64,000 nucleotides of DNA from NCBI RefSeq assembly GCF_036346855.1, contig NZ_CP107841.1, forward strand, positions 2,046,001-2,110,000, given 5' to 3'. This document shows positions 32,280 to 52,800 of the stretch, one piece after another. A program made the position numbers and the translations under genes. This DNA comes from Streptomyces europaeiscabiei. GTDB lineage: Bacteria; Actinomycetota; Actinomycetes; Streptomycetales; Streptomycetaceae. Position 1 is the stretch's first letter, and every line of letters begins with the position of its first letter. The notes beneath the pieces were generated by a model. The model made no database searches and had not been told where the DNA came from. It saw nothing but the letters and a program-made list of their open reading frames with translations.

Positions 32280-32460
32280 CCGGGGATCGTCGCACAAGGC
32301 CCCCGACGCGCGCGGAGGCGAGGGGCACCGACGCACCCACCACCGCTCCGAACCCCTCACTCCCCTGTCATGACCCCAACTCCCCACCCCTGAATCGATC
32401 GTGAGGATTTGGGCTCGCCCCGGACACGGTCGCGTGACACGTGCGACACAGGCCTCCCCT

Positions 32461-32484
32461 AATTTCTGTCGCCCGACAGGAATT
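32461..32484. promoter_or_regulatory. Palindromic operator upstream of the APC permease (copy 1)
   Basis: Arms AATTTCTGTCG (32461-32471) and CGACAGGAATT (32474-32484) around a 2-base spacer; one mismatch in 11. The sequence CCCCTAATTTCTGTCGC is shared, base for base, with the site at 42451-42474 upstream of the DUF1989/carboxylase operon. It lies 55 bp before the permease start, in promoter position. A TetR-family dimer is the likely binder. Confidence 0.8.
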
Positions 32485-32539
32485 CGCGCCCGCCGGTGCG
32501 CGAATGCTCGCGCCGCTTGTGCGAAAGCAGGTTGCCGCC

Positions 32540-34090
32540 ATGACGAGCACCGCCCCCCAAGTCCGTCCGGAGCCACCCCACTCCCCCGACGACCGTTCCC
32601 TGACCGAGTTCGGCTACCGCCAGGAACTGCACCGCAGCATGCGCGGGTACGCCTCGTTCGCCGCCGGTTTCTCCTTCATCTCGGTCCTCACGACCGTCTT
32701 CCAGTTCTTCGCCTTCGGGTACGCCTTCGGCGGCCCGGTCTTCTTCTGGACCTGGCCGGCTGTACTGATCGGCCAGCTGCTGGTGGCCGCGTGCTTCGCG
32801 GAGCTGGCGGCGCGTTACCCGATATCGGGCGCGATCTATCAGTGGTCGTCCCGCCTGTCCAACCCGACGTTCGGCTGGTTCGCCGGCTGGATCATGGTGA
32901 TCGGGCAGATCGTGGTGGTCGCGGCGGCCGCGCTCGCGCTCCAGATGGTGATGCCCGCGATCTGGTCGGGCTTCCAGATCGTGGGCGGCGACCCGACGCC
33001 CACCACGCCGACGGGCGCGGCGAACGCGGCCGTCCTGGGCGTGATCCTGCTGGCCCTGACCACGTTCGTGAACATCCTCGACAACCGGGTGCTGTCCGTG
33101 GTCAACCGGGTCGGCGTGACCGCCGAGATCATCGGCGCGATCCTGATCGTCGTCCTCCTTCTCACCCACGCCGAGCGCTCCCCCGGCATCACCTTCCACA
33201 CGGCCGAGGGCAGCACCGACCTCCTCGGCGCCCTGCTGGTGGGCTCGTTCATGGCGGCGTACGTGATGATCGGGTTCGACAGCGCGGGCGAGATGAGCGA
33301 GGAGACCCACCACCCCCGCCGCACCGCGCCCCGCACGATCCTCACGGCACTGGGCGCGGCCGGTCTGCTCGGCGGTCTCCTCGTCCTGGCCGGTCTGCTC
33401 GCCGCGCCCAGCCTCACCGACGGCAGGCTGGGCGTGGACGGCCTGAGCTACGTGCTGACCAGCAGTCTCGGCGACGGCGTGGGCCGCTTCCTGCTCGCCG
33501 ACGTGGTGGTGGCGATCACCGTGGCCACGCTCGCGATCCAGACGTCGGCCTGCCGCATGCTCTTCTCGATGGCCCGCGACGGCCGGCTCCCCTTCGCCGG
33601 GCGACTCGCCAGGGTCAACCCGCGCACGGGCATGCCCACCGCCCCCGCCGTGGTCGTCGGCATCCTCGCCGCCGCCCTGCTGCTCCTCAACTTCGCCTCG
33701 CCGGAGGCGTTCCTGGCCATCGGCACCACCTGCATCGTGATGTTGTATCTGGCGTACGCGATGGTCACCGGCCCGCTCCTGGTACGGCGCCTGAAGGGCA
33801 CCTTCCCCTCCGCCGGCACCGACGAGACCGGCAAGCCCCTCTTCTCCCTCGGCCGCTGGGGCATCCCCGTCAACGCCCTCGCCCTCCTCTACGGCCTCTT
33901 CATGACCGCCAACCTGGCCTGGCCCCGCGCCGAGGTCTACGACCCCGCAGGCGGCCACTGGTACTTCCAGTGGTTCACCCTCCTGTTCCTGCTCGCCACG
34001 GTGACCCTCGGCCTCCTCCACCACCTGACCCGGGCCCGCCGGGCGCGCGCTGCGGGGAAAGCCGCCCCGGCGCCACCGGAGCAACCTTGA
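32540..34090 (+). CDS. APC-family permease, urea/guanidine-carboxylase-associated type
   Basis: A 516-residue permease with about 12 membrane helices; RSLTEFGYRQELHRSMRGYASFAAGFSFISV at the N-terminus and ELAARYPISGAIYQWSSRL fit the amino acid/choline transporter branch of the APC superfamily. Genes of this type are often annotated as urea carboxylase-related amino acid permeases. The operator upstream is almost identical to that of the DUF1989/carboxylase/allophanate hydrolase operon 10 kb away, so it probably imports that pathway's substrate (guanidine, urea or a precursor). The ATG at 32540 was chosen over an in-frame start at 32441, which would place the operator inside the gene. Confidence 0.88.
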   Translation: MTSTAPQVRPEPPHSPDDRSLTEFGYRQELHRSMRGYASFAAGFSFISVLTTVFQFFAFGYAFGGPVFFWTWPAVLIGQLLVAACFAELAARYPISGAIYQWSSRLSNPTFGWFAGWIMVIGQIVVVAAAALALQMVMPAIWSGFQIVGGDPTPTTPTGAANAAVLGVILLALTTFVNILDNRVLSVVNRVGVTAEIIGAILIVVLLLTHAERSPGITFHTAEGSTDLLGALLVGSFMAAYVMIGFDSAGEMSEETHHPRRTAPRTILTALGAAGLLGGLLVLAGLLAAPSLTDGRLGVDGLSYVLTSSLGDGVGRFLLADVVVAITVATLAIQTSACRMLFSMARDGRLPFAGRLARVNPRTGMPTAPAVVVGILAAALLLLNFASPEAFLAIGTTCIVMLYLAYAMVTGPLLVRRLKGTFPSAGTDETGKPLFSLGRWGIPVNALALLYGLFMTANLAWPRAEVYDPAGGHWYFQWFTLLFLLATVTLGLLHHLTRARRARAAGKAAPAPPEQP

Positions 34091-34190
34091 AAATCGAACG
34101 GTCTGATCGAAGCAGGGGACATCTCCAGCCATCCTGCGTATCATTCATGACAAATTTTCAACCGAATGCGCCCCTTATGTGCCGCAGTAC

Positions 34191-34218
34191 GCTCGCCGTA
34201 CGCCCCTTCACGGCGAGC
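34191..34218. other. Stem-loop upstream of the orphan gene
   Basis: GCTCGCCGT (34191-34199) and ACGGCGAGC (34210-34218) form a perfect 9-bp stem with a 10-base loop, 63 bases before the start of the orphan protein. It could end the permease transcript (100 bases from its stop) or act in the leader of the next gene; no U-run follows. Confidence 0.45.
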
Positions 34219-34280
34219 GGCCATCGCCCGCACGCTGGGATTGCAGCCAGAAGTGGGGACTTCTTGCGGAGGCTCGGGCT

Positions 34281-35633
34281 ATGGCGACAAGTGGCGTTGC
34301 GGTCTCGACAGTTACCCCGGACATGCTCGCTTGGAAAGGCTCCGTACGACAGGCTCTGGAGCGGCTCTCAGGCGCGAGGGGGATTCAGGAACTGCTGCAT
34401 CGGTCGCACGCACTCTGGTGCGGACCGGATTGTGATCGCGGTACGACTTGTTCGTTCCTGCACTACCCGCGGAGCCCGGCGAAGGCCGTCCGTCCCGCGA
34501 CCACGAGGTCCCGTTACAACAAGCAGACCGCTCACCTGTACGCCGTCATGGGCGAGCACGGATACGCCGGCCCGGTCGCCCAGTGCCACGAGGTGAACGT
34601 GTGGCCGCTGCTGGAGAAGGTCACGGAACGGTGGGACGCGGCACGGGGACGAGGCGGCAGAATTCCCGAGCACTACGCCGACTGGACGAAGAAGCGTGAC
34701 GCCAAGGCCGCCGACACGGTGTCACGCGCCTGCCGGGACACCCTCCAGTGGATGGCCTGCTGGTGCGGTGAGCGATTCGACGCGGACCCGCTGGGGCTCC
34801 ACTACATAGCCTTCGCCACCATCATCGACGACATCTGCATACCCCCGCTCGACCTGGTCCAGGGCCGCTTTCGCATGTACGGCAGGTCCGTGCCCGACCT
34901 GGTGCGGGCGATGGACACGGCCGGCTGGGGGCGCGACGCGGTCCATGCGCTGCTGTCACTGGTCCGGCAGGCCATCTTCCAGTACGCGGAGAAGATGGAC
35001 TACCTGCCGGGGGACGACCACGTCGGGCTCCAGGAGGCGCTGAACGACTCGCCGAACATGTGGGACGGGGTCATGTTCCGGGGCAACACCGGCAACGCGT
35101 ACGGGACCGCCATCATGGTGGCCCGGAACAGCGCGACGGGACCCGTGTCCTTCCCCTGGCTCATGGACAGCGCGATCTGTGACTGCCTCTCCATGGATCT
35201 GTGCAAGTCGACGCTCGGCATCTACTCGGCGGACGACCACCAGCCGACGTCGAGCAAACACCGGGCGGAGGAGCGGAAGGCCAGCTACCGGTCGATCTAC
35301 CTCGACCTCATAGACGACCTGGTCTTCACGGGCGCACCCGAGCCGCTGGTCCACTTCGGCCGCAGCGGTTTCCTCTTCGTGCAGATCCAGGACCGGTACC
35401 AGGAGCGCCGCCAGGGCAAGCGATTCCCGCTGGCTCCGCCGATGGTCCGCGAGCTCGAACGGCTCTTCGGCGAGGTACCGACGGACGACTGGCTCGACCA
35501 GGCGTTCACCGCGGCGAACCGCCTCCGCCTCGCCGGGGTGCACGGTCCCACCAGCACGCCGGACGTCGAGCAGCCGCACCGTCTCCACCCGAGCGGGCGG
35601 CAGGACCCGCAGGCCACACGACTCCTCGCCTGA
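34281..35633 (+). CDS. Orphan protein with C-x3-C-x5-C-x3-H motif, function not recognised
   Basis: A 450-residue protein I do not recognise. Near the N-terminus, CGPDCDRGTTCSFLH gives Cys47, Cys51, Cys57 and His61, spaced like the second half of a CCCH zinc finger. The body (about 140-380) appears mostly helical: WMACWCGERFDADPLGLHYIAFATIIDDICIPPLD has a paired Asp (183-184), CDCLSMDLCK (300-309) follows, and DRYQERR lies at 372-378. The order DD, D-x2-S, RY recalls class I terpene synthases, but spacing and motif quality are too poor to assign that. GGAGG lies eight bases before the ATG at 34281, so the start is firm. Stands alone between the permease and rluA-type genes; no signal peptide or membrane segment. 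Confidence 0.85.
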   Translation: MATSGVAVSTVTPDMLAWKGSVRQALERLSGARGIQELLHRSHALWCGPDCDRGTTCSFLHYPRSPAKAVRPATTRSRYNKQTAHLYAVMGEHGYAGPVAQCHEVNVWPLLEKVTERWDAARGRGGRIPEHYADWTKKRDAKAADTVSRACRDTLQWMACWCGERFDADPLGLHYIAFATIIDDICIPPLDLVQGRFRMYGRSVPDLVRAMDTAGWGRDAVHALLSLVRQAIFQYAEKMDYLPGDDHVGLQEALNDSPNMWDGVMFRGNTGNAYGTAIMVARNSATGPVSFPWLMDSAICDCLSMDLCKSTLGIYSADDHQPTSSKHRAEERKASYRSIYLDLIDDLVFTGAPEPLVHFGRSGFLFVQIQDRYQERRQGKRFPLAPPMVRELERLFGEVPTDDWLDQAFTAANRLRLAGVHGPTSTPDVEQPHRLHPSGRQDPQATRLLA

Positions 35634-35679
35634 ACAAGCGTGCAGGGCCGGGCCACGCCCGCTCGTATGCTTGATCGTG

Positions 35680-36621
35680 ATGAGACGCCGTACCCCGTCC
35701 CCGCCCCCTCCCCTGCCGCAGCGCGACGGGGTCGATCCGGTGCGGGTGCGGTTGCCGGCCGGGGACGCGTGGGCGACCGTACGGGATCACCTCGTGGCAC
35801 GGCTGTCGGCCGGGGCCGGGGTGATCGACGCGATGCTCGACGCGGGGCTGATCGTGGACGTCACCGGGCGTCCGGTGCCGCGGGACATGGTGTACGTGCC
35901 GGGCATGTCCGTGTGGTTCCACCGGGAGCTGCCCGCCGAGGAGCGGGTGCCCTTCGCGATCGACGTGCTGTACCGGGACGAGCATGTGGTGGTCGCCGAC
36001 AAGCCGCACTTCCTGGCCACCACCCCCCGCGGCAGCCATGTCACCGAAACGGCCCTGGCCCGGCTGCGCAGGGAGCTGGGCATCCCGACGCTCGGCGCCG
36101 CGCACCGGCTGGACCGGCTCACCGCCGGGGTGCTGCTGTTCACCGTGCGGCCCGGCGAACGCGGCGCGTACCAGTCGCTGTTCCGGGACCGGCGGGTGAG
36201 GAAGGAGTACGAGGCGGTCGCCCCGTACGACCCGGCGCTGGTCCTGCCCCACACCGTGCGCAGCCGGATCGTGAAGGAGCGCGGGGTCATGGCGGCGTAC
36301 GAGGTCGAGGGAGAGCCGAACGCCGTCAGCCGGGTCGAGTTGCTGGACCACCGGGACGGGCGTGCCCGGTACCGGCTGGTGCCGAATACCGGGCAGACAC
36401 ATCAACTGCGGGTGCACATGAACGCGTTGGGGGTTCCGATCCTCGGCGATCCCCTCTATCCGGTTCTCACCCCGCCCGTGCCGGCCGGTGACTTCCGGCG
36501 TCCGCTCCAACTGCTGGCGCGGAGCCTGGAGTTCACCGACCCGGTCACGGGGTTCGAGCACCGGTTCGTCAGCCCGCGCGTGTTGCGGGCCTGGTCCTCG
36601 TACGAGGAGTGGGCGGCGTAG
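35680..36621 (+). CDS. RluA-family pseudouridine synthase
   Basis: A 313-residue RNA pseudouridine synthase. An S4-like or linker N-terminus (1-90) precedes the catalytic domain: VLYRDEHVVVADKPHFLATTP, the signature GAAHRLDRLTAGVLLFTV with the catalytic Asp in HRLDR, KEYEAV, and LVPNTGQTHQLRVHMNALGVPILGDPLY. It isomerises uridine in rRNA or tRNA; the target site cannot be told. ATG at 35680 is preferred to a TTG at 35671. It converges with the P450 gene of the conservon. Confidence 0.93.
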   Translation: MRRRTPSPPPPLPQRDGVDPVRVRLPAGDAWATVRDHLVARLSAGAGVIDAMLDAGLIVDVTGRPVPRDMVYVPGMSVWFHRELPAEERVPFAIDVLYRDEHVVVADKPHFLATTPRGSHVTETALARLRRELGIPTLGAAHRLDRLTAGVLLFTVRPGERGAYQSLFRDRRVRKEYEAVAPYDPALVLPHTVRSRIVKERGVMAAYEVEGEPNAVSRVELLDHRDGRARYRLVPNTGQTHQLRVHMNALGVPILGDPLYPVLTPPVPAGDFRRPLQLLARSLEFTDPVTGFEHRFVSPRVLRAWSSYEEWAA

Positions 36622-36666
36622 GCCGGGCACGGGGTGCGGGCGGCACGGGCCTGGCGCCCGGTCGGC

Positions 36667-38136
36667 TCAGTTGCCGCCGAACCAGCGCACGATGCGCCGG
36701 AACAGTCCTGGCCGGCGGGCCGGTTCGGGCTGCGGCGCGGGCTCGGCCGTCGTAGCGGGTTCCGGGGTGACGGCCTGCGGCAGTTGTGTGCCGCCCCGCC
36801 GCTGGTGCGGGGGCTTCGGCGGCACCGGGTTGACGGCGGGCCGCTGCATGACGTCCTGCTGGGGCCTCGGCGCGAACGTCACCGGCAGCTCCACCAGGTG
36901 CCGGTTGGAGATGGACTCCCGCCACCGCAGTTCGTCCTCCGGGCAGGCGAGCTGGATGTCGGGAACACGGGTCAGCAGCGCGTCGACGCCCACGTCGGCG
37001 ATGGCGCGGCCGATGTCCTGGCCCGGGCACTCGTGGGGGCCGCCGCTGAAGGCGAGGTGCGAGCGGTTGCCCTGCATGTTGGCCTTGAGGTCGGGACGGA
37101 CGCGGGGGTCGACGTTGCCCGGCGCCATGCCGAGGAGGAGCCCGTCGCCCTTGCGGATGCGCTGGCCGCCCAGCTCGGTCTCCTGCTTGGCGAAGTAGGC
37201 GAAGACGGTGCTGAACGGAGGTTCGTCCCACAGGGACTGCTCGACCGCCTCGGGCACGGTCATCTGACCGCCCTTCAGCTGGGCGCGGAAACCGGGATCG
37301 GTGAGCACCACGCGCAGCACATTGGCGAGGAGGTTGGCGGTGGCCTCGTAGGCGGCGAGGAGCACCACGCGGAGGTGTTCCCTGACCTCGTCGTCGGTGA
37401 GCCCGGCCGGGTGCGTGATGAGGTGGCTGGCGAAGTCCTCCTGGGGCTGGGCGCGGCGGCGCGCGGTGAGCCGGTCGAGAACCTCCATCACGTAGGCGTG
37501 GCTGACGAGCGCGGTCTCGCTGCCCTTCAGGCAGTCGCGGGCGGCGTGCACCAGCCGTTCGTCGTACGAGTCGGGCATGCCGAGGATCTCGCACATCACC
37601 GCCATCGGCAGGTGTTCGGCGAACTGGCCGACCAGGTCGGCGCTGCCGTCCTCGCAGAACTTGTTGACGAGGTGCTGGGTCGCGCGGTTGATGTAGCGGC
37701 GGATGCCCCGGTGGTCGATGGTCGACATGGCGCCGGTGACCGCTCCGCGCAGCCGCAGGTGCTCGTCGCCCTCGGCATGGGCGCAGATGGGCTGCCAGGC
37801 GAAGTGCGGCATGAGGGGGTGGTCGGGCTTCACGGTGCCCTCCCGCATGGGGGACCACAGCCGGGTGTCCTTGCAGAACTGCGACGGCGTACTCACCATG
37901 TGCAGGTTCTCGCCGTGTCCGAGCACCACCCAGATCGGCACGTCGTCGTGGAGCAGCGCGGGGGCCACCGACCCGTGCTCCGCGCGCAGTTTCTCGTACA
38001 CGGCGCCCAGGTCCTCCGCCTCGGGGCCGTAGAGCCGGCGCAGTCCGCCGGGGCCCATACCGTGGGCGGGGCAACCGGGGGGAGGCGCGAGCGTGGGGTC
38101 GTCCGTGCCGGTGAGGGAGTTTGATTCAGGCGTCAC
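36667..38136 (-). CDS. cvnE9: Conservon cytochrome P450 lacking the ExxR arginine (CYP157-like)
   Basis: A 489-residue P450. The haem-binding loop FSGGPHECPGQDIG supplies Cys370, and the I-helix has AAYEAT (261-266). The K-helix motif, normally ExxR, reads EQSLW (Glu299, Leu302), so the arginine found in nearly all P450s is missing. I recall that the CYP157 family of Streptomyces conservons has exactly this feature. The C-terminus carries an unusual 75-residue Pro-rich tail ending RIVRWFGGN. It is the last gene of the conservon, 90 bp after the GTPase gene. The substrate is unknown; the tail may hold it near its membrane-associated partners. Symbol given by position in a cvn9-like order. Confidence 0.9.
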   Translation of the reverse strand: MTPESNSLTGTDDPTLAPPPGCPAHGMGPGGLRRLYGPEAEDLGAVYEKLRAEHGSVAPALLHDDVPIWVVLGHGENLHMVSTPSQFCKDTRLWSPMREGTVKPDHPLMPHFAWQPICAHAEGDEHLRLRGAVTGAMSTIDHRGIRRYINRATQHLVNKFCEDGSADLVGQFAEHLPMAVMCEILGMPDSYDERLVHAARDCLKGSETALVSHAYVMEVLDRLTARRRAQPQEDFASHLITHPAGLTDDEVREHLRVVLLAAYEATANLLANVLRVVLTDPGFRAQLKGGQMTVPEAVEQSLWDEPPFSTVFAYFAKQETELGGQRIRKGDGLLLGMAPGNVDPRVRPDLKANMQGNRSHLAFSGGPHECPGQDIGRAIADVGVDALLTRVPDIQLACPEDELRWRESISNRHLVELPVTFAPRPQQDVMQRPAVNPVPPKPPHQRRGGTQLPQAVTPEPATTAEPAPQPEPARRPGLFRRIVRWFGGN

Positions 38137-38226
38137 GGTGATCGCTTTCGAACTGAGGTGGATCCGGTGTCCGGATGTCGTTGGGGTCCTAGGGGACGTG
38201 CGGGCCGTACGGGGCTCAGGCGCGGG

Positions 38227-38865
38227 TCATGACGACGCGGCCCCCGATGCCGCCGCTCCCGACGTGGCCAGGGAGTGCAGGAAGGTCATGAGGGTCATCA
38301 GGACGTCGCGGCTGGACGCCCGGCGGCGCGCGTCGCAGCGGAGGATCGGGATCTCCCGGGCGAGGTCGAGGGCCTGACGCATTTCCTCGATGTCGTAGCG
38401 GGGCGCGTCCGGGAAGTCGTTGACCGCCACGACGAAGGGCACACCGCGCTCCTCCAGGCGGCCCATGACGTCGAAGCTGACCTCCAGCCGACGGGTGTCG
38501 ACCAGGACGACCGCACCGAGGGCGCCCTCGAACAGGCCGTTCCACAGGAACCAGAAGCGCTCCTGGCCGGGGGTGCCGAACAGATAGAGCACCAGCTCGT
38601 CCGTGACGCTGATACGGCCGAAGTCCATGGCCACGGTGGTGGCCGTCTTGGACTTGGAGCCGAAGTTGTCGTCGACACCGATGCCGGCCTGCGTCATGGT
38701 CTCCTCGGTCGTCAGCGGCCTGATCTCGCTGACGGACCCCACCATGGTCGTCTTGCCGACGCCGAAACCGCCCACGATCACGATCTTCGCCGCGGCCTGC
38801 GCGGTGTGCGGCAGGTGGTCCTCGGTCCGTGGACCCGTGATGGTGTCAGAGCTTTTGAAGTCCAT
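38227..38865 (-). CDS. cvnD9: Conservon Ras-like GTP-binding protein
   Basis: A 212-residue small GTPase. Walker A is VGGFGVGKTT (about 32-41), a switch region follows with ETMTQAGIGVDD and TVAMDFGRI, the G3 motif appears as LFGTPGQERF, and the base-specificity loop as VAVNDFPDA, where Asn-Asp stands for NKxD. Conservon GTPases interact with the Roadblock and DUF742 proteins and are thought to work like a bacterial G-protein relay. Its start overlaps the end of the DUF742 gene by 20 bases. In S. griseus and S. coelicolor the matching system (rar/cvn9) affects aerial mycelium formation, from memory. Confidence 0.94.
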   Translation of the reverse strand: MDFKSSDTITGPRTEDHLPHTAQAAAKIVIVGGFGVGKTTMVGSVSEIRPLTTEETMTQAGIGVDDNFGSKSKTATTVAMDFGRISVTDELVLYLFGTPGQERFWFLWNGLFEGALGAVVLVDTRRLEVSFDVMGRLEERGVPFVVAVNDFPDAPRYDIEEMRQALDLAREIPILRCDARRRASSRDVLMTLMTFLHSLATSGAAASGAASS

Positions 38866-39268
38866 GCATCACCGCTTCGAGGAGGGAACGGTCTGCCCGC
38901 GCCTGCCGGACGACCGGTGCGCGTGCCTGTACCAGTTCGGCCGTCAGCAGCTCGGTGAGCAGGACGGTCACCACGCTGATCGGCAGGTTGAGGTAGGCCG
39001 AGATCTCGGCCACGGACAGGGGTGCCTGGCAGATCCGGAGCAGTGCCGACTGCTCCGGAGCGGCGGACGGCGGTGGATCGGCGCGCGCCACGATTAACGT
39101 GACGAGGTCGATCGGAGCTCGCTCGCCGTCCTCGCCGGTGAGGATGTAGAGCCGCTCGGGCGGGCGCCCCCCCGTCTCGCTCGTTTCGCCCGTGGGATCG
39201 TCCTGGGGCGGCGGTGGGGGAGGCGGCTCGTGCTTGGGCTGGCGCCGCTGGCGACGGGGAGGCGTCAT
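38846..39268 (-). CDS. cvnC9: Conservon DUF742 protein with a TTA codon
   Basis: A 140-residue DUF742 protein with a Pro-rich N-terminus (13-35), RLYILTGEDGERAPIDLVTLIVA, and a winged-helix-like part, LRICQAPLSVAEISAYLNLPISVVTVLLTELLTAELVQARAP. Leu58 is encoded by TTA (39097-39095), so translation should require the bldA tRNA and would be limited to the developmental phase; because the GTPase gene overlaps by 20 bases, coupling could extend that effect. ATG at 39268 overlaps the Roadblock gene stop (ATGA). Confidence 0.93.
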   Translation of the reverse strand: MTPPRRQRRQPKHEPPPPPPPQDDPTGETSETGGRPPERLYILTGEDGERAPIDLVTLIVARADPPPSAAPEQSALLRICQAPLSVAEISAYLNLPISVVTVLLTELLTAELVQARAPVVRQARADRSLLEAVMHGLQKL

Positions 39269-39672
39269 ACGGTCTGCCCGTTCCGCCGCGGCGGACTGGT
39301 GAGGTGGGAGCCGATCCGGTCGACGAGGTCGCGCATGCGGTTGCTCATCAGTCCGGGTTCCGCGATCTCGTTGGCGAGCACCGCGAGATAGGCGTTGGAG
39401 CCGGCGGCCATCAGATAGAAGTAGCCGCCGTTGATCTCGATGATGACCATGCGCATGTGGCCGTCGCTCTGCGGGATCTCGTCGGCCACGGCGCCGGCCA
39501 GGCTCTGCAGTCCGGCGCAGGCCGCGGCGACCCGGTCGGCGGCGTCCGGGTCGCCGCCGTGGCGGGCGATCCGCAGGCCGTCGGCGGAGAGCACGACGAT
39601 CTGCTGGATGCCGGGTACGCCGTCGGCCAGATCCTTCAGCAGCCAGTCGAAATTGGCCCGTCGCTGGATCAC
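39265..39672 (-). CDS. cvnB9: Conservon Roadblock/LC7-domain protein
   Basis: A 135-residue Roadblock/LC7 protein, (V)IQRRANFDWLLKDLADGVPGIQQIVVLSADGL, with the family core RMVIIEINGGYFYLMAAGSNAYLAVLA. Such proteins regulate small Ras-like GTPases. The GTG start at 39672 overlaps the kinase stop by four bases (GTGA), and its stop overlaps the DUF742 start (ATGA), so the three are translationally coupled. Confidence 0.94.
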   Translation of the reverse strand: MIQRRANFDWLLKDLADGVPGIQQIVVLSADGLRIARHGGDPDAADRVAAACAGLQSLAGAVADEIPQSDGHMRMVIIEINGGYFYLMAAGSNAYLAVLANEIAEPGLMSNRMRDLVDRIGSHLTSPPRRNGQTV

Positions 39673-41324
39673 TTGAGGTCCCCCTCGTCGTCGGCCTCGG
39701 TGCGGGCCGGCTCGGTGTTCGCGGTACGTGCGGTGGACGCCGTCGGGTCGTCCGGATGGTTCCTGAAGGCGTTCGGGTCGGGGTCGCCCTTGAGTCCGGC
39801 CATGAACGCCTCGACCCACATGCCGGGCGGGGGCTGCTTCTTCTCCGGATCGGGCTCCGGCTGCCACACCGGGGCGGCGGCCATGGCGGCCTCGGCCGCG
39901 GCCTCCGCGGCGGCGGCCTCGGCGTAGCGCTGGCTGAGCGGAATCTTGTTCCGGCTGCGGCGCTGCGGCAGGCCGTTGGCCGTCCACTCGGTGACGACGG
40001 GGACGTCGTCGTCCATGTCGTGGCCCCTGCCCTGGCCGCCCGTGTCCTCCGCGGAACTCGGGATCCGCGGTCCGGTGGTCGGGCGACGGCGCTTGGCCTT
40101 GCGGTTGGGGCCTTCGACACCACCGTTGTCCATGATCGTCACGGCGCCGGCGCCGATGCCGTGGGCCAGGCCGGGGGCGGGTTCCTCGGTGAGCATGTCG
40201 CGCGGTACGACGACGACGGCGCGGACACCGCCGTAGGCGGACGGCCGCAGCGAGATCTGCATGTTGTACATCGTCGACAGCCGGCCCACGACGGCGAGGC
40301 CGAGGCGCGGGGTGTCGCCCATGTCCTGCACGTCGATGCCCTGCTGGGCCTTGGCGAGCATGTCCTCGACCTTGGCCCGGGTCTCCTCGCTGAGGCTGAT
40401 GCCACCGTCCTCGATCTCGATGGCGATGCCGGTCTGCACCTCCACGGCGGTGACGTGCACCTTGGTGTGGGGCGGCGAGTAGCGGGTGGCGTTGTCCAGA
40501 AGTTCGGCGCAGGCGTGGATGACCGGTTCGACGGCCACACCGTCGACATTGACCTTGGCGATCGAGTCGAGCTCGATGCGGCGGTATTCCAGGATGCGGG
40601 ACATGGCGCCGCGCAGGACGCTGTACAGCGGGACGGGCCGGGACCAGACACGGCCGGGGCGGCCGCCGCCGAGCACGGCGATGGAGTCGGCGAGGCGGCC
40701 GATCAGGGCGGTGCCGTGGTCGATGCGCAGCAGGTCGTCGAAGACCTCGGGGTTGCGCCCGTGGTCCTCCTCCATCTCGCGGAGTTCGTTGTTCTGCTGG
40801 TGGACGATCGCCTGGACGCGGCGGGCGATGTTGACGAACGACCGCTGCGAGGAGTCGCGGAGCGCGTCCTCGCGGTCGACGATGGTGAGCAGGGTGCGCA
40901 GCAAGTCTCGCTGGGACTCGGGCAGTTCGCGCCACTCGGCGTCACCGTCGACGACGTGACGAATCACCTCTGCGGGGGATTCTCCGCCGCGCAGCCGGTA
41001 CAGCGCGGCGGGCAGGATCTCCTTGCCCAGCCGGGTGAATTCCTGGTCGTGGGCGGTGATCCGCTGCTCGAGGAGAACGGTCCGGCGCTGCTGTTCGGCG
41101 CGCAGTTCGCGGACCGTGCGACGGCCGCCGCGCACCGCGACGACGGCGACCACGATCAGCAGGAACGTCGCGACGGCTCCGCACAAGCCGACGGCGAGCC
41201 GGGCCGACCCCGTCACCAGGGAGACGGTGGTCCCGGTCGCCGCGGCCATCAGTATCGCCGGTAGCGGCAGCACGCGCGCGTAGGGAAGTTCACGGCCACC
41301 GGGAGGCGATTGAACACTCACCAT
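39669..41324 (-). CDS. cvnA9: Conservon sensor histidine kinase
   Basis: A 551-residue histidine kinase-like protein. Two membrane segments near the N-terminus (about 19-40 and 45-63) are joined by a very short outer loop, so it is unlikely to sense by a periplasmic domain. The dimerisation region has RRVQAIVHQQNNELREMEEDHGRNPEVFDDLLRIDH as in other conservon kinases, followed by an HATPase domain (CAELLDNATRYSPPHT; MGDTPRLGLAVVGRLST). A C-terminal extension of about 150 residues, acidic and Pro-rich, follows. No response regulator is adjacent; signalling is thought to pass to the Roadblock, DUF742 and GTPase proteins. Heads the conservon operon. Confidence 0.94.
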   Translation of the reverse strand: MVSVQSPPGGRELPYARVLPLPAILMAAATGTTVSLVTGSARLAVGLCGAVATFLLIVVAVVAVRGGRRTVRELRAEQQRRTVLLEQRITAHDQEFTRLGKEILPAALYRLRGGESPAEVIRHVVDGDAEWRELPESQRDLLRTLLTIVDREDALRDSSQRSFVNIARRVQAIVHQQNNELREMEEDHGRNPEVFDDLLRIDHGTALIGRLADSIAVLGGGRPGRVWSRPVPLYSVLRGAMSRILEYRRIELDSIAKVNVDGVAVEPVIHACAELLDNATRYSPPHTKVHVTAVEVQTGIAIEIEDGGISLSEETRAKVEDMLAKAQQGIDVQDMGDTPRLGLAVVGRLSTMYNMQISLRPSAYGGVRAVVVVPRDMLTEEPAPGLAHGIGAGAVTIMDNGGVEGPNRKAKRRRPTTGPRIPSSAEDTGGQGRGHDMDDDVPVVTEWTANGLPQRRSRNKIPLSQRYAEAAAAEAAAEAAMAAAPVWQPEPDPEKKQPPPGMWVEAFMAGLKGDPDPNAFRNHPDDPTASTARTANTEPARTEADDEGDLK

Positions 41325-41670
41325 GTATGCCCTCTAAAGACAGATCGGCTGAAGGTCGGGGTACTTGCGGGGAGTTGCTGGAGCTTGCTCGGGTTCATCG
41401 GGGAATCAAACTGGATCTTCGGTATTTTTTGGAACAAGCGCCCGAATACATCTCAACTCGGTGCGCTGCGGGCGAGCTTAGTCCGACCGGATCATCGCTG
41501 TGTCATATTCAGCAACCGACTGAAATCGCCCTCGGGACAGGAGTACGCTCTGGTCATTTACACGCAGGGGCGCCATTCGCACACAGTGCGTGACGACGAA
41601 CAGGCGTACGAAAAGTGCCCCTTGACAAGGTGAACCGGTGCCGGAGGCGGCCTGTCGGGGACGCCCTTCC
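41325..41670. promoter_or_regulatory. Upstream region of the conservon
   Basis: This 346-bp gap between the kinase start and the TetR stop is markedly AT-richer than its surroundings, especially 41405-41460 (with GGTATTTTTTGGAACAAG). It should contain the conservon promoter. Short frames on the plus strand lack Streptomyces codon bias and are not called. No palindrome matching the TetR-type operators was found here. Confidence 0.55.
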
Positions 41671-42306
41671 TCAGACGCCGACGATGCGCAGCGCGGCGTC
41701 CGCCGTCGCCTCGGCGAAGGCGGAGACCGGGCGGTCGGGGTCCGAGCGGTGGACGAGGATGACGCCCTCGATCAGCCCGAAGACGAGATCCGTCCGCAGA
41801 TCCAGCTCAGTCTTGGCGAGCGCCCCGCCCGCGGCCGTGGCCGCGATCAACTGCCGGTACGCGTCCTTGAGTTCGGCCCGTACCGCATGGAAGCCGGCGA
41901 AGCGTTCGGTGCGGACCTCCGGGAGGAGGTAGAGCCCGCCGAGGTTGTGCGGGCCGCCGCACAGCAGGGCGACATCCGCGCGGCACAGCTCCCGGAGCCG
42001 CTCCTCGGCGCGGGCGCCGTCCCGGGCGAGGAGTTCACGGGCGTACGCGAGCGACGGGGTGACCGTGGACTCCAGCAGCTCGGCGAGCAGCTCCTCCTTG
42101 CCGGAGACGTAGTGGTACATGGACGCCTGCCGCATTCCGGCGCGCTCGGCGAGGGCCCGGGTGGTGGTGGCCGCGTAGCCCTGCGTCGTGAACAACTCGG
42201 CGGCGGACGCGCGCAGTTCGTCGCGGGGCGACAGTCCGCTCTCGGGCCGCCCTCCGGCCCGGGGCCTGCCGACCCGCCGCCCACCGGTGCCGCCCGCGCT
42301 TCCCAT
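41671..42306 (-). CDS. TetR-family repressor of the DUF1989/carboxylase operon (probable)
   Basis: A 211-residue TetR-family regulator. The HTH (about 30-75) reads LRASAAELFTTQGYAATTTRALAERAGMRQASMYHYVSGKEELLAELL; the rest is a helical ligand-binding and dimerisation domain (LCGGPHNLGGLYLLPEVRTERFAGF). It is divergent from the DUF1989 gene, with a perfect palindrome in the gap; the same palindrome precedes the APC permease at 32461-32484. This makes it the obvious candidate repressor for both. The ATG at 42306 follows GAGGA by eight bases. The inducer is not known; a pathway intermediate or substrate would fit. Confidence 0.9.
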   Translation of the reverse strand: MGSAGGTGGRRVGRPRAGGRPESGLSPRDELRASAAELFTTQGYAATTTRALAERAGMRQASMYHYVSGKEELLAELLESTVTPSLAYARELLARDGARAEERLRELCRADVALLCGGPHNLGGLYLLPEVRTERFAGFHAVRAELKDAYRQLIAATAAGGALAKTELDLRTDLVFGLIEGVILVHRSDPDRPVSAFAEATADAALRIVGV

Positions 42307-42342
42307 GTGTTCGATCCTCGCACACGGCACCCGCGCGTCCGC

Positions 42343-42356
42343 TGCGACCGGTCGCA
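42343..42356. promoter_or_regulatory. Second palindrome near the tetR start
   Basis: TGCGACCGGTCGCA is a perfect 14-bp palindrome 37 bp upstream of the tetR ATG. Its sequence differs from the TTTCTGTCG-type operator, so it is either an independent site or a chance GC palindrome. Confidence 0.35.
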
Positions 42357-42450
42357 CGGTTCCCCGGCCCCCTGACGAGGCACGACCATCGTGAGGGGTC
42401 GGTAACTGCCCCGCAACGCCAGGGACATGGCGACGACCCGCCCCGCCCCT

Positions 42451-42474
42451 AATTTCTGTCGCACGACAGAAATA
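42451..42474. promoter_or_regulatory. Palindromic operator of the DUF1989/carboxylase operon (copy 2)
   Basis: ATTTCTGTCG (42452-42461) and CGACAGAAAT (42464-42473) are perfect 10-bp arms around a 2-base spacer, 24 bp before the first gene of the operon and 145 bp from the tetR start. With copy 1 at 32461-32484 it shares CCCCTAATTTCTGTCGC and the right-arm CGACAG. Spacing and symmetry are those of a TetR-type operator; this close to the start it would block transcription initiation. Confidence 0.85.
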
Positions 42475-42497: not shown

Positions 42498-43322
42498 ATG
42501 GCGACATCGACGACGTACGGAGCACGCGACCACGCCCGCGCACAGGAGGGCGCCCGGGCCGAGGCGATGCCCGTGGTGCCCGCGAGCCGCTGGCCGGCCC
42601 CGCCCTGCGAGGCGGAGCACCTGGTGTGGGCGGAGACGGTGGCGGGCGGCAACTACACCCACAGGGTGCTCGCCCGGGGCACCGAGTTCCGCCTCACCGA
42701 CCTGCGCGGCGACGCGTGCGCACATCTCCTCCTGCACCACGCCGACCGCCCCTGGGAACGGCTGAACGTCGCCGACACCGTCAAGGTCCAGTGGAACGCC
42801 TACCTGGGCGAGGGCGTCCTGCTCCTGTCCGACCAGGGCCGCGTCCTCGCCTCGGTCGTCGCGGACACCTCCGGCCGCCACGACGCGCTGTGCGGCACCT
42901 CCACCCTCGTACGCAACACCGAGCGGTACGGGGACGGCACCCCGCAGTCCCCCTCGCCCGCCGGGCGCGAGCTGTTCAAGCTGGCCGCCGCCAAGAACGG
43001 CCTCGAACCCCGGGACCTCCCGCCCTCGCTCTCGTTCTTCCAGGGCGTGGAGGTACGCGAGGACGGCACCCTCGACTTCACCGGCTCCGCCGGCCCCGGC
43101 GCCGCCGTGACCCTGCGCGCCGAGCAGGACGTGACCGTACTGATCGCCAACGTGCCGCACCCTGCCGACCCGCGCCCCGACTACGTCAGCACCCCACTGG
43201 AGGTGCTCGCCTGGCGCGCCGGGCCGACCCGGCCCGGCGACCCCCTGTGGGACGCCACCCCCGAGGGCCACCGCGCCTTCCTCAACACCGCCGAGTTCAT
43301 CGCCGCGAGGGAGACCGCATGA
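42498..43322 (+). CDS. DUF1989 protein 1 (urea amidolyase-associated / carboxyguanidine deiminase subunit type)
   Basis: A 274-residue DUF1989 protein. GGNYTHRVLARGTEFRLTDLRGDACAHLLLHHAD, then VVADTSGRHDALCGTSTLVRN with a conserved Cys, and ELFKLAAAKNGLEPRDLPPSLSFFQGVEV follow the pattern of the first urea-carboxylase-associated protein. Pairs of such proteins were more recently shown, as I recall, to be a heteromeric carboxyguanidine deiminase (CgdAB) that turns carboxyguanidine into allophanate, with a metal bound by His/Cys/Asp residues. That would place this operon in guanidine rather than urea breakdown. First gene of the operon; its stop overlaps the next start (ATGA). Confidence 0.9.
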   Translation: MATSTTYGARDHARAQEGARAEAMPVVPASRWPAPPCEAEHLVWAETVAGGNYTHRVLARGTEFRLTDLRGDACAHLLLHHADRPWERLNVADTVKVQWNAYLGEGVLLLSDQGRVLASVVADTSGRHDALCGTSTLVRNTERYGDGTPQSPSPAGRELFKLAAAKNGLEPRDLPPSLSFFQGVEVREDGTLDFTGSAGPGAAVTLRAEQDVTVLIANVPHPADPRPDYVSTPLEVLAWRAGPTRPGDPLWDATPEGHRAFLNTAEFIAARETA

Positions 43323-43954
43323 AGACCGCCACTTCGGTGAAGACCGCCACCTCGGTGAAGACCGTCGTTCCGGCCAGGGCCGCCTGGTCGTCCGTGATAC
43401 GCGCCGGTGAGACCCTCACCCTCACCGATCTGCACGGCAACCAGGCCGTCGACTTTCTCGTGTACGACGCCCACGACACCTCCGTGCGCTACAGCGCACC
43501 CGACACCATCCACGCGCAGGGCGGCATCTTCCTCACCACCGGCAGCGTGCTGATGTCCAACGAGCACACCCCGCTGATGACCGTGGTCGCCGACGACGTG
43601 GGCCGCCACGACACGGTCGGCGGCGCCTGCTCCAAGGAGTCGAACACCCTGCGGTACGGGCACCACACCTGGTCGCAGCACGCCTGCGTGGACAACTTCC
43701 TCGCGGAGGGCGCCCGGCACGGCCTCGGCAAGCGCGACCTCGTGTCGAACATCAACTGGTACATGAACGTGCCGGTCGAGAAGGACGGCACTCTCGGCAT
43801 CGTCGACGGCATCTCCGCCCCGGGTCTCGCACTGACCCTGCGCGCCGAGTGCGACGTGCTCGTCCTGGTCTCCAACTGCCCCCAGATCAACAACCCCTGC
43901 AACGGCTTCGACCCGACGGCGGTGGAGATGACGATCACCGGAGCCGGCGCATGA
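43319..43954 (+). CDS. DUF1989 protein 2 (second subunit type)
   Basis: A 211-residue DUF1989 protein with LTLTDLHGNQAVDFLVYDAHD, VVADDVGRHDTVGGACSKESNTLRYGHH and a cysteine-rich end, VLVSNCPQINNPCNGFDPTAVEM, the typical second partner of the pair. The N-terminus contains a direct repeat, TATSVK twice (MKTATSVKTATSVKT), encoded by an 18-bp near-duplication, likely recent and outside the domain. Overlaps both neighbours by four bases (ATGA), so the two DUF1989 proteins and the carboxylase should be made together. Confidence 0.9.
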   Translation: MKTATSVKTATSVKTVVPARAAWSSVIRAGETLTLTDLHGNQAVDFLVYDAHDTSVRYSAPDTIHAQGGIFLTTGSVLMSNEHTPLMTVVADDVGRHDTVGGACSKESNTLRYGHHTWSQHACVDNFLAEGARHGLGKRDLVSNINWYMNVPVEKDGTLGIVDGISAPGLALTLRAECDVLVLVSNCPQINNPCNGFDPTAVEMTITGAGA

Positions 43955-46900
43955 CCTTCGACACCCTGCTGGTCGCCAACCGCGGCGAGATCGCCGTCCG
44001 CATCATCCGCACCGCCCGCGAACTGGGCCTGCGGACGGTCGCCGTGTACTCCGACGCCGACCGCGCCGCCGCCCACGTCCGGCTCGCCGACGAGGCGGTA
44101 CGGCTCGGCCCGGCACCCGCGAAGGAGTCGTACCTCGACGCGGACCTCATCCTGAAGGCAGCCAAGGACACGGGCGCGGGCGCCGTCCACCCCGGCTACG
44201 GCTTCCTCTCCGAGGACGCGGCCTTCGCCCGCCGCTGCGAGGACGCGGACATCGTGTTCGTCGGCCCCACCCCCGACCAGCTGGAACTGTTCGGCGCGAA
44301 GCACACGGCACGGGAGGCCGCCGAGGCCGCGGGCGTCCCGCTCCTGCCCGGCACCGACCTGCTGCCCTCGCTCACCGAAGCCCTCCACCAGGCCTCGGCC
44401 CTCGGCTACCCGGTGATGCTCAAGGCCACCGGCGGAGGCGGCGGTATCGGCATGTCTGCCTGTCGCTCCGCCGCCGAACTGACCGAGGCCTGGGAGCGGG
44501 TGCAGCGCGTCGCCGCCGCCTCCTTCTCCTCCGCCGGCGTCTACCTCGAACGCCTCGTCGAGCGGGCCCGCCATGTCGAGGTGCAGGTCTTCGGCGACGG
44601 CGACGGCCTCGTCGTCACCTTCGGCGACCGCGACTGCTCCCTCCAGCGCCGCAACCAGAAGGTCGTCGAGGAGGCCCCGGCGCCCGGCCTCCCCGACCAT
44701 GTGCGCGAGCGGCTGACCGCCTCCGCCCGCGACCTGTGCGCGAGCGTGGAGTACCGCTCCGCCGGAACCGTCGAGTTCGTCTACGACGCCGCCCGCGAGG
44801 AGGCGTACTTCCTGGAGGTCAACGCCCGCCTCCAGGTGGAACATCCGGTCACCGAGGAGATCTACGGCGTCGACCTCGTCGCCTGGATGCTGCGCCTGGC
44901 CCGCGGCGACTCCGCCGTCGTCCAGGCCCCGGCGCAACCCCGCGGCCACGCCGTCGAGGCCCGGATCTACGCCGAGGACCCCTCCCGTGCGCACCGGCCG
45001 AGCGCGGGCCTGCTGACCCGGGTCGAGTTCCCGCCGGACGTCCGCGTGGACGGCTGGGTCGAGACGGGCACCGAGGTCACGACCTCGTACGACCCGCTGC
45101 TCGCCAAGGTCGTCGCGCACGGCTCCGACCGCGCCCACGCCCTGCGCCGGCTGGACGAGGCGTTGGCCGGGACCCGGGTCGACGGCATCGAGACGAACCT
45201 GGGCCTGGTCCGGGCGGCCCTCGCCGACCGGGACTTTTGCCGGGCCGCCCACTCCACGGCCACGCTCGCGACCGTGACCGACCCGACCCCCCGCGTCGAG
45301 GTCGTCGCCGGCGGCACCCTCACCACCGTCCAGGACTGGCCCGGCCGCAGGGGCTACTGGCAGGTCGGCGTCCCGCCCTGCGGCCCCATGGACGACCTCT
45401 CCTTCCGCCTCGGCAACCGGGCCCTCGGCAACCCCGAGGGCGCCCCCGGTCTCGAATGCACTCTCCAGGGGCCGTCGCTCCGCTTCACCCACGCCACCAC
45501 GGTCTGTGTGTCGGGCGCCCCCGCCCAGGTGACCGTGGACGGCTCACCGGTCGCGCAGTGGGAGCCGGTGACGGTACCCGCAGGAGCCGTCCTGGCCGTC
45601 GGCGCCCCCACGGAACAAGGACTGCGCACCTACGTCCTCTTCGCGGGCGGCGGCCTGGACGTCCCGTCGTTCCTCGGCAGCGCGGCCACCTTCACCCTGG
45701 GCCGCTTCGGCGGCCACGGCGGCCGGGCACTGCGGACCGGCGACGTGCTGCACGGCGGAGCGGTCACAGCCGGAGGTCACCCGGTCCCGCCGGGGGCCCG
45801 CCCGCCGTTCACCTCCTCCTGGCAGGTGGCCGCCCTCGAAGGCCCGCACGCGGCACCGGAGTTCTTCACCGAGGAGGACATCCACGAGTTCTACGCGGCC
45901 GACTGGAAGGTCCACTTCAACTCGGCCCGCACCGGCGTACGGCTGGTCGGCCCCAAGCCCCGCTGGGCCCGCACCGACGGCGGCGAGGCCGGCCTGCACC
46001 CCTCCAACATCCACGACACCCCGTACTCGGTCGGCGCCGTCGACTACACCGGCGACATGCCGGTTCTCCTGGGCCCCGACGGCCCCTCCCTCGGCGGCTT
46101 CGTCTGCCCGGCCACCGTCGCCTCCACCGAGCGCTGGAAGCTCGGCCAGCTGCGCCCGGGGGACACGGTCCGCTTCCTACCGGTGGCGGACGACGCCTCG
46201 CCCCGCCCCGCGATCGTCGACGGCGGCGTCCTGGCCCGCGACGGCGACGTGACCTACCGCCGCAGCGGCGACGACAACCTCCTCGTCGAGTTCGGCCCCA
46301 TGCAACTCGACCTGGCGCTGCGCATGCGGGTGCACGCCCTGATGGAGGCGATCTCCGAAGCGTGCCTCGACGGCGTCACCGACCTCACCCCCGGCATCCG
46401 CTCCCTCCAGATCCAGACGGCCCCGGCGGTCCTCCCACAGCCCGAACTCCTCACCCGGGTACGGCAGATCGTGACGTCCCTCCCCCCGGCGGACGAACTG
46501 GTCGTCCCCTCCCGCACGATCCACCTCCCCCTCTCCTGGGACGACCCCGCGACCCGTGAGGCCATCGCCCGCTACATGGCGGGCGTCCGCGACGACGCGC
46601 CCTGGTGCCCCTGGAACATCGAGTTCATCCGGCGCGTCAACGGCCTGGACTCGGTGACCGACGTCTACGACACGGTCTTCGACGCGGAGTACCTGGTCCT
46701 GGGCCTGGGCGACGTCTACCTGGGCGCCCCGGTCGCGACCCCGCTGGACCCCCGCCACCGCCTGGTGACGACGAAGTACAACCCGGCCCGCACCTGGACC
46801 GCCGAGAACTCGGTCGGCATCGGCGGGGCGTACCTGTGCGTCTACGGCATGGAGGGCCCCGGCGGCTACCAGTTCGTCGGCCGCACCACGCAGGTCTGGT

Positions 46901-47469
46901 CGCCGTGGCAGCAACGCGGCGCGTTCGAGCCCGGCTCCCCCTGGCTGCTCCGCTTCTTCGACCGCATCAAGTGGTACCCGGTGGACGCCGACGAACTACT
47001 GGCCCTCCGCGCGGACATCGTGTCGGGCCGCTTCGTGCCGCGCGTGGAGCACGGCACCTTCTCCCTGGCCGCCCACCAGACCTTCCTCACGGAACACGCC
47101 GACTCCATCGCCGAGTTCGGAACGAGGCAGCGGACCGCCTTCGCGGCGGAGCGGGCGGCCTGGGAAGCGGCCGGCGAGTTCACGAGGGCGGAGGTGGTGT
47201 CCACGCCTCCGGCCACCCCGGCGGAGGTGCACGTCCCCGAGGGCAGCCATCTGATCGAGGCCGAGTTCACCGCGTCGGTCTGGCAGGTGAACGTGCGCCC
47301 GGGCGACCTGGTGACCACCGGCCAGCCCCTGCTGACCCTGGAGGCAATGAAGATGGAGTCCCGCGTCCGCTCCCCCGTGGACGGCACAGTCGACCAGATC
47401 CTGACCAGCCCGGGCACCCAGGTGGACGCGGGCACCCCCCTACTCATCCTGGCTCCGGCCGACACCTAG
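43951..47469 (+). CDS. Biotin-dependent urea/guanidine carboxylase
   Basis: A 1172-residue single-chain carboxylase. Residues 1-450 are biotin carboxylase (FDTLLVANRGEIAVRIIRTA; KATGGGGGIGMSACRS; EVNARLQVEHPVTEE), about 460-1060 the KipA/KipI-like carboxyltransferase (TTVQDWPGRRGYWQVGVPPCGPMDDL; LLVEFGPMQLDLALRMRVHA), and 1095-1172 the biotin carrier with EAMKMES, biotinyl Lys1134. There is no fused allophanate hydrolase, which follows as a separate gene. Enzymes of this family carboxylate urea to allophanate or guanidine to carboxyguanidine; two DUF1989 partners upstream favour guanidine. The active-site residue that separates the two was not judged from memory. ATG at 43951 overlaps the DUF1989 stop. 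Confidence 0.92.
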   Translation: MTFDTLLVANRGEIAVRIIRTARELGLRTVAVYSDADRAAAHVRLADEAVRLGPAPAKESYLDADLILKAAKDTGAGAVHPGYGFLSEDAAFARRCEDADIVFVGPTPDQLELFGAKHTAREAAEAAGVPLLPGTDLLPSLTEALHQASALGYPVMLKATGGGGGIGMSACRSAAELTEAWERVQRVAAASFSSAGVYLERLVERARHVEVQVFGDGDGLVVTFGDRDCSLQRRNQKVVEEAPAPGLPDHVRERLTASARDLCASVEYRSAGTVEFVYDAAREEAYFLEVNARLQVEHPVTEEIYGVDLVAWMLRLARGDSAVVQAPAQPRGHAVEARIYAEDPSRAHRPSAGLLTRVEFPPDVRVDGWVETGTEVTTSYDPLLAKVVAHGSDRAHALRRLDEALAGTRVDGIETNLGLVRAALADRDFCRAAHSTATLATVTDPTPRVEVVAGGTLTTVQDWPGRRGYWQVGVPPCGPMDDLSFRLGNRALGNPEGAPGLECTLQGPSLRFTHATTVCVSGAPAQVTVDGSPVAQWEPVTVPAGAVLAVGAPTEQGLRTYVLFAGGGLDVPSFLGSAATFTLGRFGGHGGRALRTGDVLHGGAVTAGGHPVPPGARPPFTSSWQVAALEGPHAAPEFFTEEDIHEFYAADWKVHFNSARTGVRLVGPKPRWARTDGGEAGLHPSNIHDTPYSVGAVDYTGDMPVLLGPDGPSLGGFVCPATVASTERWKLGQLRPGDTVRFLPVADDASPRPAIVDGGVLARDGDVTYRRSGDDNLLVEFGPMQLDLALRMRVHALMEAISEACLDGVTDLTPGIRSLQIQTAPAVLPQPELLTRVRQIVTSLPPADELVVPSRTIHLPLSWDDPATREAIARYMAGVRDDAPWCPWNIEFIRRVNGLDSVTDVYDTVFDAEYLVLGLGDVYLGAPVATPLDPRHRLVTTKYNPARTWTAENSVGIGGAYLCVYGMEGPGGYQFVGRTTQVWSPWQQRGAFEPGSPWLLRFFDRIKWYPVDADELLALRADIVSGRFVPRVEHGTFSLAAHQTFLTEHADSIAEFGTRQRTAFAAERAAWEAAGEFTRAEVVSTPPATPAEVHVPEGSHLIEAEFTASVWQVNVRPGDLVTTGQPLLTLEAMKMESRVRSPVDGTVDQILTSPGTQVDAGTPLLILAPADT

Positions 47470-47741
47470 CCCCGCCAGGGGCGCGGGGGAACTGCGCGAC
47501 GAGCCCCACCGAACCCCGCACCCGCCCACGACTCCGAACCCCCCGCCCCCCAAGGCGCCCAAGGCGCCCGAGGTGGTCGAGGTGGTCGAGGTGGTCGAAG
47601 GGGCACAGCCCCTGGATGGGGGCACCTCCCGCTCGAGCGAAGCCGAGAGTGAGGGAGGGACGGGTAGGGGCGGCGGGGCGAACAACCCACACGCACCCCC
47701 TCCGCCCCGCAGCCGACCACAGCACCCACCCAGGAGCACAG
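47470..47741. repeat. Composite recurrent intergenic element within the operon
   Basis: The gap between carboxylase and allophanate hydrolase begins with CCAGGGGCGCGGGGGAACTG, then a 9-bp GAGGTGGTC repeat three times (about 47571-47600), GTCGAAGGGGCACAGCCCC, a hairpin-forming stretch CACCTCCCGCTCGAGCGAAG followed by CCGAGAGTGAGGGAGG, and GGACGGGTAGGGGCGGCGGG. It shares most blocks with 22031-22150. Being inside an apparent operon, it may lower read-through to the last gene. Confidence 0.8.
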
Positions 47742-52692: not shown

Positions 52693-52800
52693 CGTGCTTT
52701 CGAGACTACCGGCCCCCACTGACAACAGGACGATCATTATCCGGATCGTGCCACCGTCGAGATCCGGACCGCCTTCCGTCCGAAAAGGAGTCCGAGAACG

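Follow-up and report, generated by a model that had tools for sequence, protein, structure and literature searches.

In the 64,000-nucleotide stretch of Streptomyces europaeiscabiei analysed here (contig NZ_CP107841.1, positions 2,046,001 to 2,110,000; hereafter the window), an APC permease gene and a catabolic operon are each preceded by a copy of the same palindrome, and a tetR-family gene is encoded divergently from the operon (Table 1). The original prediction, made from the letters of the window, had proposed that one TetR repressor governs both loci across the 10 kb that separate them. The gene content is as it was described there, with an APC permease, two DUF1989 genes (UAAP1 and UAAP2), a carboxylase and an allophanate hydrolase, adjoining tetR. 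The operon (UAAP1-UAAP2-carboxylase-allophanate hydrolase) spans 42498-49406.

The permease, the operon and their two palindromes

Both palindromes were found where they had been placed, with the arms, the 2-base spacers and the single mismatch as described. Operator 1 reads AATTTCTGTCG-CC-CGACAGGAATT, with 11-bp arms and one mismatch, and operator 2 reads AATTTCTGTCG-CA-CGACAGAAATA, in which the inner 10 bp are perfect and the outermost A/A is unpaired. The word said to be shared by the two promoters is present in both (CCCCTAATTTCTGTCGC), at a length of 17 bases and not 16.

Searching the window with the 24-base pattern at up to three mismatches gave two matches, and 100 shuffles gave 0. Across the genome (10.95 Mb), TTTCTGTCGNNCGACAGAAA at up to two mismatches is found at the window's two sites alone (0 and 1 mismatch). 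At up to three mismatches it is found at three places, and 0 times in the backward control. From base composition (71% G+C), 0.0008 genomic sites are expected at up to one mismatch, which agrees with the claim that sharing by chance is very unlikely. Since 0.63 places are expected at up to three mismatches, the third match, which has three, is at chance level. It is the sole further match, and no third regulon member was found in the genome.

A homologue scan with the TetR protein returned at least 109 relatives, of which the best 80 loci were kept, nearly all from Streptomyces and the remainder from close kin. The UAAP1 operator lies upstream of the gene in all 68 loci with a readable start (0 mismatches in 59, 1 in 9). 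The permease operator, with one to three mismatches, was found in 57 of the 59 loci with a readable permease start; in the two misses (L036 and L053) the gene start is at the sequence edge. The permease site lies 822 bp upstream of the aligned start in L049, and 291 bp upstream with three mismatches in L077. The other 12 of the 80 loci have no usable UAAP1: two are contig ends (L021 and L041), one has a decayed operon (L058) and in nine no UAAP1 was found. The second arm of the permease operator is the asymmetric GACAGGAA in 56 of 57 relatives, which suggests that this site has been selected as weaker or is differently used. Upstream of tetR in L058, near operon fragments, we detected an operator with a spacer one base short (TTTCTGTCG-C-CGACAGAAA), apparently decaying along with the operon.

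The permease adjoins tetR in Streptacidiphilus (L077), in the f17 family (L178-L180) and in several Streptomyces. In a quick tree, whose root was not inferred, one change suffices for the 18 split loci included in it (support 94), which are placed among lineages that are contiguous or have a 2-kb gap. The simplest history compatible with these sequences would be that the conservon block came between tetR and the permease once, with both operators retained. L063 shows additional gene rearrangement and still has both operators. The conservon-like block itself is not counted as a regulon member.

Table 1. Coordinates of the features discussed, in window numbering
Feature	Position	Strand	Remarks
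GlnR-like 11-bp phased repeats GACAC-n6-GTGAC-n6-GACAC	32423-32449	+	upstream of operator 1
Putative -10-like hexamer TAATTT	32460-32465	+	overlaps operator 1; based on conservation
Operator 1 (predicted AmtR box)	32461-32484	+	upstream of APC permease
APC permease	32540-34090	+	best NCBIfam model TIGR03428 'permease, urea carboxylase system'
Conservon-like block (kinase-like ATPase, DUF742, small GTPase-like, weak P450 match)	36667-41324	-	between tetR and permease
tetR-family repressor, AmtR orthologue (211 aa)	41671-42306	-	divergent from operon
GlnR-like 11-bp phased repeats GTGAG-n6-GTAAC-n6-GCAAC-n6-GACAT	42391-42428	+	upstream of operator 2
Putative -10-like hexamer TAATTT	42450-42455	+	overlaps operator 2; based on conservation
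Operator 2 (predicted AmtR box)	42451-42474	+	upstream of UAAP1, in divergent tetR-UAAP1 intergenic region
UAAP1 (DUF1989)	42498-43322	+	probable carboxyguanidine deiminase subunit
UAAP2 (DUF1989)	43319-43954	+	probable carboxyguanidine deiminase subunit
Carboxylase	43951-47469	+	annotated urea carboxylase (TIGR02712); both guanidine-carboxylase signature aspartates
Allophanate hydrolase	47742-49406	+	

Kinship and distribution of the regulator

Among proteins of solved structure, the nearest relatives of the window TetR are the AmtR of Mycobacterium smegmatis (E 7e-36) and that of Corynebacterium glutamicum, and all six distinct PDB sequences at E<=1e-20 are AmtR by name or title. The predicted model of the protein (mean predicted local distance difference test score 88.5) has AmtR chains as its top 14 fold matches, the closest being M. 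smegmatis AmtR 5e57 (43% identity in the structural match); solved structures of C. glutamicum AmtR also match. Among the DNA-contact residues of C. glutamicum AmtR, Gln53, Ser55 and Tyr57 are kept, and Tyr58 and His59 are replaced by His and Tyr. Both palindromes contain CTGT-N6-ACAG, an instance of the AmtR operator pattern CTRT-N6-AYAG. With the flank they read tttCTGT-N6-ACAG, and the box of the C. glutamicum TetR-type repressor is tttCTATN6AtAGat/aA. Judged by these comparisons, the window TetR is an AmtR and the palindromes are predicted AmtR boxes. The proposal of one repressor with two sites agrees with this in essence, while the AmtR identity, the AmtR box and the GlnR-like repeats upstream had gone unrecognised; because the TetR was not recognised as AmtR, it had also been missed that most of the regulon had been described before.

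For M. smegmatis, control of these genes by AmtR is published, and the AmtR of Streptomyces avermitilis (AmtRsav, sav_6701) is cited with a similar consensus, so the core of the finding is known, and the regulon itself is ordinary and already largely published. Chen et al. 2013 reportedly showed binding of AmtRsav at both promoters. Passages of Jessberger et al. (PMC4222082) describe the same gene set in S. avermitilis, a species of the same genus (permease sav_6709, carboxylase sav_6698 and amidase sav_6697), with amtR divergent from the operon and the permease elsewhere, as in the window. An excerpt of PMC8864220 attributes to Chen et al. 2013 the AmtRsav consensus TAtCTGTCa-n2-cGACAGATAT. 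Relative to AmtRsav, the species is another one, and the guanidine assignment, the GlnR-like arrays, the single origin of the split and the residue-flank co-variation discussed below are new here.

In M. smegmatis, according to the sections of PMC4222082 on that species, AmtR represses the msmeg_2184-2189 gene set and binds upstream of msmeg_2184, nitrogen control of the gene set requires GlnR, and AmtR binding was unaffected by urea or amino acids (0.5-5 mM, in vitro). The M. smegmatis amtR (msmeg_4300) is unlinked to the operon in the same account, whereas the window amtR adjoins it. A competitive AmtR/GlnR mechanism in M. smegmatis is named in the title of a cited work and in part of a review; in the window, by contrast, the GlnR-like repeats sit upstream of the operator and not on it. 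C. glutamicum AmtR regulates nitrogen metabolism globally, with at least 35 genes under it and induction by GlnK proposed, whereas the proposed regulon of the window AmtR is local. The literature drawn on comprises PMC4222082, PMC5137332, PMC12186494, PMC11410670, PMC4617892, PMC2723105, PMC10704036, PMC7919409, PMC8864220 and PMC4258057.

We surveyed 150 genomes of the same genus, counting the TetR at E<=1e-40, and identified it in 45, UAAP1 in 40 and both in 35. All 35 genomes with both genes have a site at up to three mismatches, and 33 of them have two or more. Five genomes have UAAP1 but no close TetR, and in these a diverged relative of 39-47% identity adjoins the operon. Such loci carry the related box TACCTGTC-N4-GACAGGTA, present in 10 of 10 with that gene order, five of them from a wider sample.

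Strict boxes are missing from four of 34 operon loci, two without a nearby tetR (L192 and L196) and two with one (L198 and L201). L192 and L196 encode UAAP1-UAAP2-allophanate hydrolase, with no matching carboxylase in the fetched stretch and no AmtR boxes. For operons without a nearby tetR, the forecast came out as predicted in five of five cases: where boxes occur without tetR in the fetched stretch (L183, L186 and L205), the genomes (G323, G524 and G290) hold an AmtR elsewhere (3/3), and among genomes with a box-less operon G333 has no AmtR and G255 a partial match only (9e-14).

One residue of the recognition helix, at the position of C. glutamicum Tyr58, varies together with the flanks of the box core across the 95 loci that have a box close to UAAP1 or to the permease. 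This residue is Tyr in 11 loci, all with C..C flanks, and His or Asn in 84, with C..C flanks in one (L182). Binding of the palindromes by another regulator, in place of the neighbouring TetR, is very improbable. The three boxed operons without tetR in the fetched stretch would fit such a regulator, as would L198 and L201, but the corresponding three genomes hold AmtR elsewhere, the palindrome is the known AmtR box, and box flank and AmtR residue change in step. A single TetR-family repressor joining the permease and the operon despite the split, as had been predicted, is strongly supported by these sequence comparisons, namely by the uniqueness of the sites, conservation of the pair, TetR co-occurrence, the five forecasts and the co-variation.

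Substrate and promoter architecture

A passage of PMC11410670 states that guanidine carboxylase requires Asp at Kluyveromyces lactis position 1584 and that Asp at 1330 separates guanidine from urea carboxylase. Aligned to the K. lactis urea amidolyase, the window carboxylase has Asp at the Asn1330 position and Asp at 1584. All 100 carboxylase homologues in the fetched loci have the signature Asp at 1330, and 99 have the one at 1584, the exception being truncated. The family scan further showed two PF09347 proteins adjoining the carboxylase, the arrangement expected of a carboxyguanidine deiminase. The operon enzymes most likely degrade guanidine, and not urea as annotated. A genuine urea-amidolyase system, with operon and permease both handling urea, is improbable: it has the database names on its side (TIGR02712 urea carboxylase, TIGR03428 urea carboxylase permease), but the discriminating residue is Asp here and in 100 of 100 relatives against Asn in the K. 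lactis urea amidolyase, and urea is among the compounds without effect on M. smegmatis AmtR binding in the portion of PMC4222082 cited above.

Guanidine as the most likely substrate can be set beside the guanidine riboswitches. In the window's genome, we detected a guanidine-III riboswitch match (C1:3998854-3998923, minus strand, L213). It scores 45.7 bits, above the gathering score of 36, and lies at the start of a SugE-like gene of the SMR family (SugE model 124 bits, cut-off 126). Such a match was identified in 27 of 40 genomes searched (25 over the cut-off) and in one of 14 control genomes. Given the guanidine signature and the guanidine-III riboswitch, guanidine is likely met by the organism. 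Rfam gave no guanidine riboswitch match at gathering score near the operon in the loci scanned (the window, six more loci with the operon and one that has tetR alone, other operon loci being unscanned), and the genome-wide search covered guanidine-III and not guanidine-I or -II. Guanidine carboxylase pathways under guanidine riboswitches have the same carboxylase aspartates, DUF1989 pair and allophanate hydrolase as the window. In the window, a DNA-binding repressor would replace the riboswitch, and the guanidine-III match of the genome lies elsewhere, at the SugE-like gene.

GlnR box consensus forms given in an excerpt of PMC10704036 are gTnAc-n6-GaAAc and t/gTAAC-n6-Gc/aAAC. Upstream of operator 2, GTAAC-n6-GCAAC at 42402-42417 fits the M. 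smegmatis GlnR form, and the window permease promoter has GTGAC-n6-GACAC, one base off the GlnR pattern. The M. smegmatis form was found in 52 of 68 UAAP1 promoters, with a distance of 51 bp to the downstream operator TTTCTG in 51 cases, and in none of 57 permease promoters. The Streptomyces coelicolor form was found in 30 of the 57 permease promoters, with a distance of 29 bp to the downstream operator TTTCTG in 29 cases, and in three of the 68 UAAP1 promoters. No instance of the Streptomyces venezuelae form was found among these 68 and 57 promoters. Shuffled controls gave a mean of 0.0.

In the mechanism that we propose, an AmtR dimer would bind both operators in S. europaeiscabiei, over the putative -10-like TAATTT of the two promoters, and would repress the permease gene and the UAAP1-UAAP2-carboxylase-allophanate hydrolase operon jointly. 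The enzymes would carboxylate guanidine, deiminate the product to allophanate and hydrolyse this to ammonia. The phased repeats just upstream of the operators are probably where the global nitrogen activator GlnR acts. The promoters would then receive two inputs: GlnR would switch them on when nitrogen is short, and AmtR would keep them off until a signal from the pathway appears, so that expression would require nitrogen shortage plus release of AmtR.

The palindromes might instead be RNA hairpins in the leaders (an attenuator or riboswitch). They are inverted repeats, perfect or nearly so, that precede the UAAP1 starts by 12-147 bases, and symmetric flank changes would be equally suited to a hairpin. 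The palindrome overlaps the conserved TAATTT and matches the AmtR box, however, its spacing to the start codon varies freely within that range among relatives, and the sole Rfam match in the window at gathering score is at 5641-5853; we therefore give this explanation hardly any credence. A local AmtR regulon controlling import and breakdown of a compound that is probably guanidine, with GlnR upstream, is what we hold to be very probable.

Several observations weigh against this account. The permease scores 647.9 bits with TIGR03428, under the 740.45 cut-off. Besides L198, which has a nearby tetR and no strict box, L201 has a degenerate box only, and in L202 the box is upstream of tetR and not close to UAAP1. 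L182 is an exception to the residue-flank rule, and C. glutamicum AmtR, which has Tyr58 and the published box flank tttCTAT, is a misfit. The Tyr58 co-variation rests mainly on one clade (support 81), and as it is largely one evolutionary change, the small p-value exaggerates it; L181 was dropped as independent support, since it groups with the TACC clade (support 81). Strict GlnR patterns occur in just 52/68 and 30/57 promoters, and the two promoters fit different published consensuses. Finally, tetR is kept without UAAP1 in 10 of the 150 genomes, with no site at up to one mismatch there.

Loci without the operon, and a possible effector of AmtR

In these 10 genomes the repressor must have some other role, which the proposed regulon does not explain. 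At E<=1e-80, the permease is missing from eight of the 10, and the other two have just a 46-47% relative. We compared 20 tetR-only loci (L058, L068, L072, L075, L076, L078-L080, L082, L083, L148, L151, L152 and L206-L212), which lack the operon and close operators. The orthologue of a helicase (window 49888-52737) ends 94-122 bp before tetR in 17 of the 20; it is about 1.5-1.6 kb from tetR in L058 and L148, and L211 has no helicase match. The operon is cleanly missing from between two of its neighbours in the window. Ser55 is Thr in all 20 proteins, as in some operon-linked ones, and the other helix contact residues are kept in 19 (L148 has His, His).

An alternative TetR target in the genomes without UAAP1 was considered and rejected, as a looser pattern finds about as many sites as its backward control does. 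Sites at up to three mismatches occur in 7 of the 10 tetR-only genomes and in 19 of the 100 genomes that lack both tetR and UAAP1, an excess that is unaccounted for. No common target emerged in the tetR-only genomes, where the best site has two mismatches and two sites are in the same locus of two genomes.

According to a passage of PMC8864220, AmtR is without an identified small-molecule effector, and we found no AmtR-guanidine link in the open-access papers searched. The M. smegmatis effector tests reported in parts of PMC4222082 covered urea and amino acids. Tentatively, we propose that guanidinium, or a close guanidino intermediate, may bind the ligand domain of AmtR via D111, E130 and E180 and so release the operators, and that the global role in Corynebacterium would be derived, with the residues lost. 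Among operon-linked AmtRs, a set that takes in M. smegmatis and two loci at contig ends, D111 is present in 101/101, E130 in 99/100 (one Asp) and E180 in 99/99, whereas C. glutamicum AmtR has E, I and M at these positions. Many non-acidic residues of the ligand domain are equally conserved. The orphan TetRs retain all three acids (20/20), which weakens the link of the acids to the operon substrate. In the tree, C. glutamicum AmtR joins the operon-linked L187 and L191 on a very long branch.

Release of AmtR by the PII protein GlnK, and not by a small molecule, seems unlikely. Adenylylated GlnK is the proposed inducer of C. glutamicum AmtR, with supporting mutants, but the AmtR-GlnK complex could not be reconstituted in vitro (both in sections of PMC7919409), the mycobacterial PII is reported in a passage of PMC4617892 not to regulate the transcriptional response, and the acidic residues kept in operon-linked AmtRs differ in C. 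glutamicum.

If AmtR does sense guanidine, it would be a protein counterpart of the guanidine riboswitches, and one genome would contain both, the riboswitch serving export and AmtR serving import and degradation. This would explain why a repressor is found where other bacteria use guanidine riboswitches, and hint at how a pathway repressor turned into a master nitrogen regulator. An AmtR without a known small-molecule effector accompanies guanidine-signature carboxylases in the 100 cases examined, and this reinterpretation would matter more than the regulon.

Elsewhere in the window, the Rfam match mentioned above is to Scr1601, a Streptomyces small RNA (minus strand, 177.3 bits).

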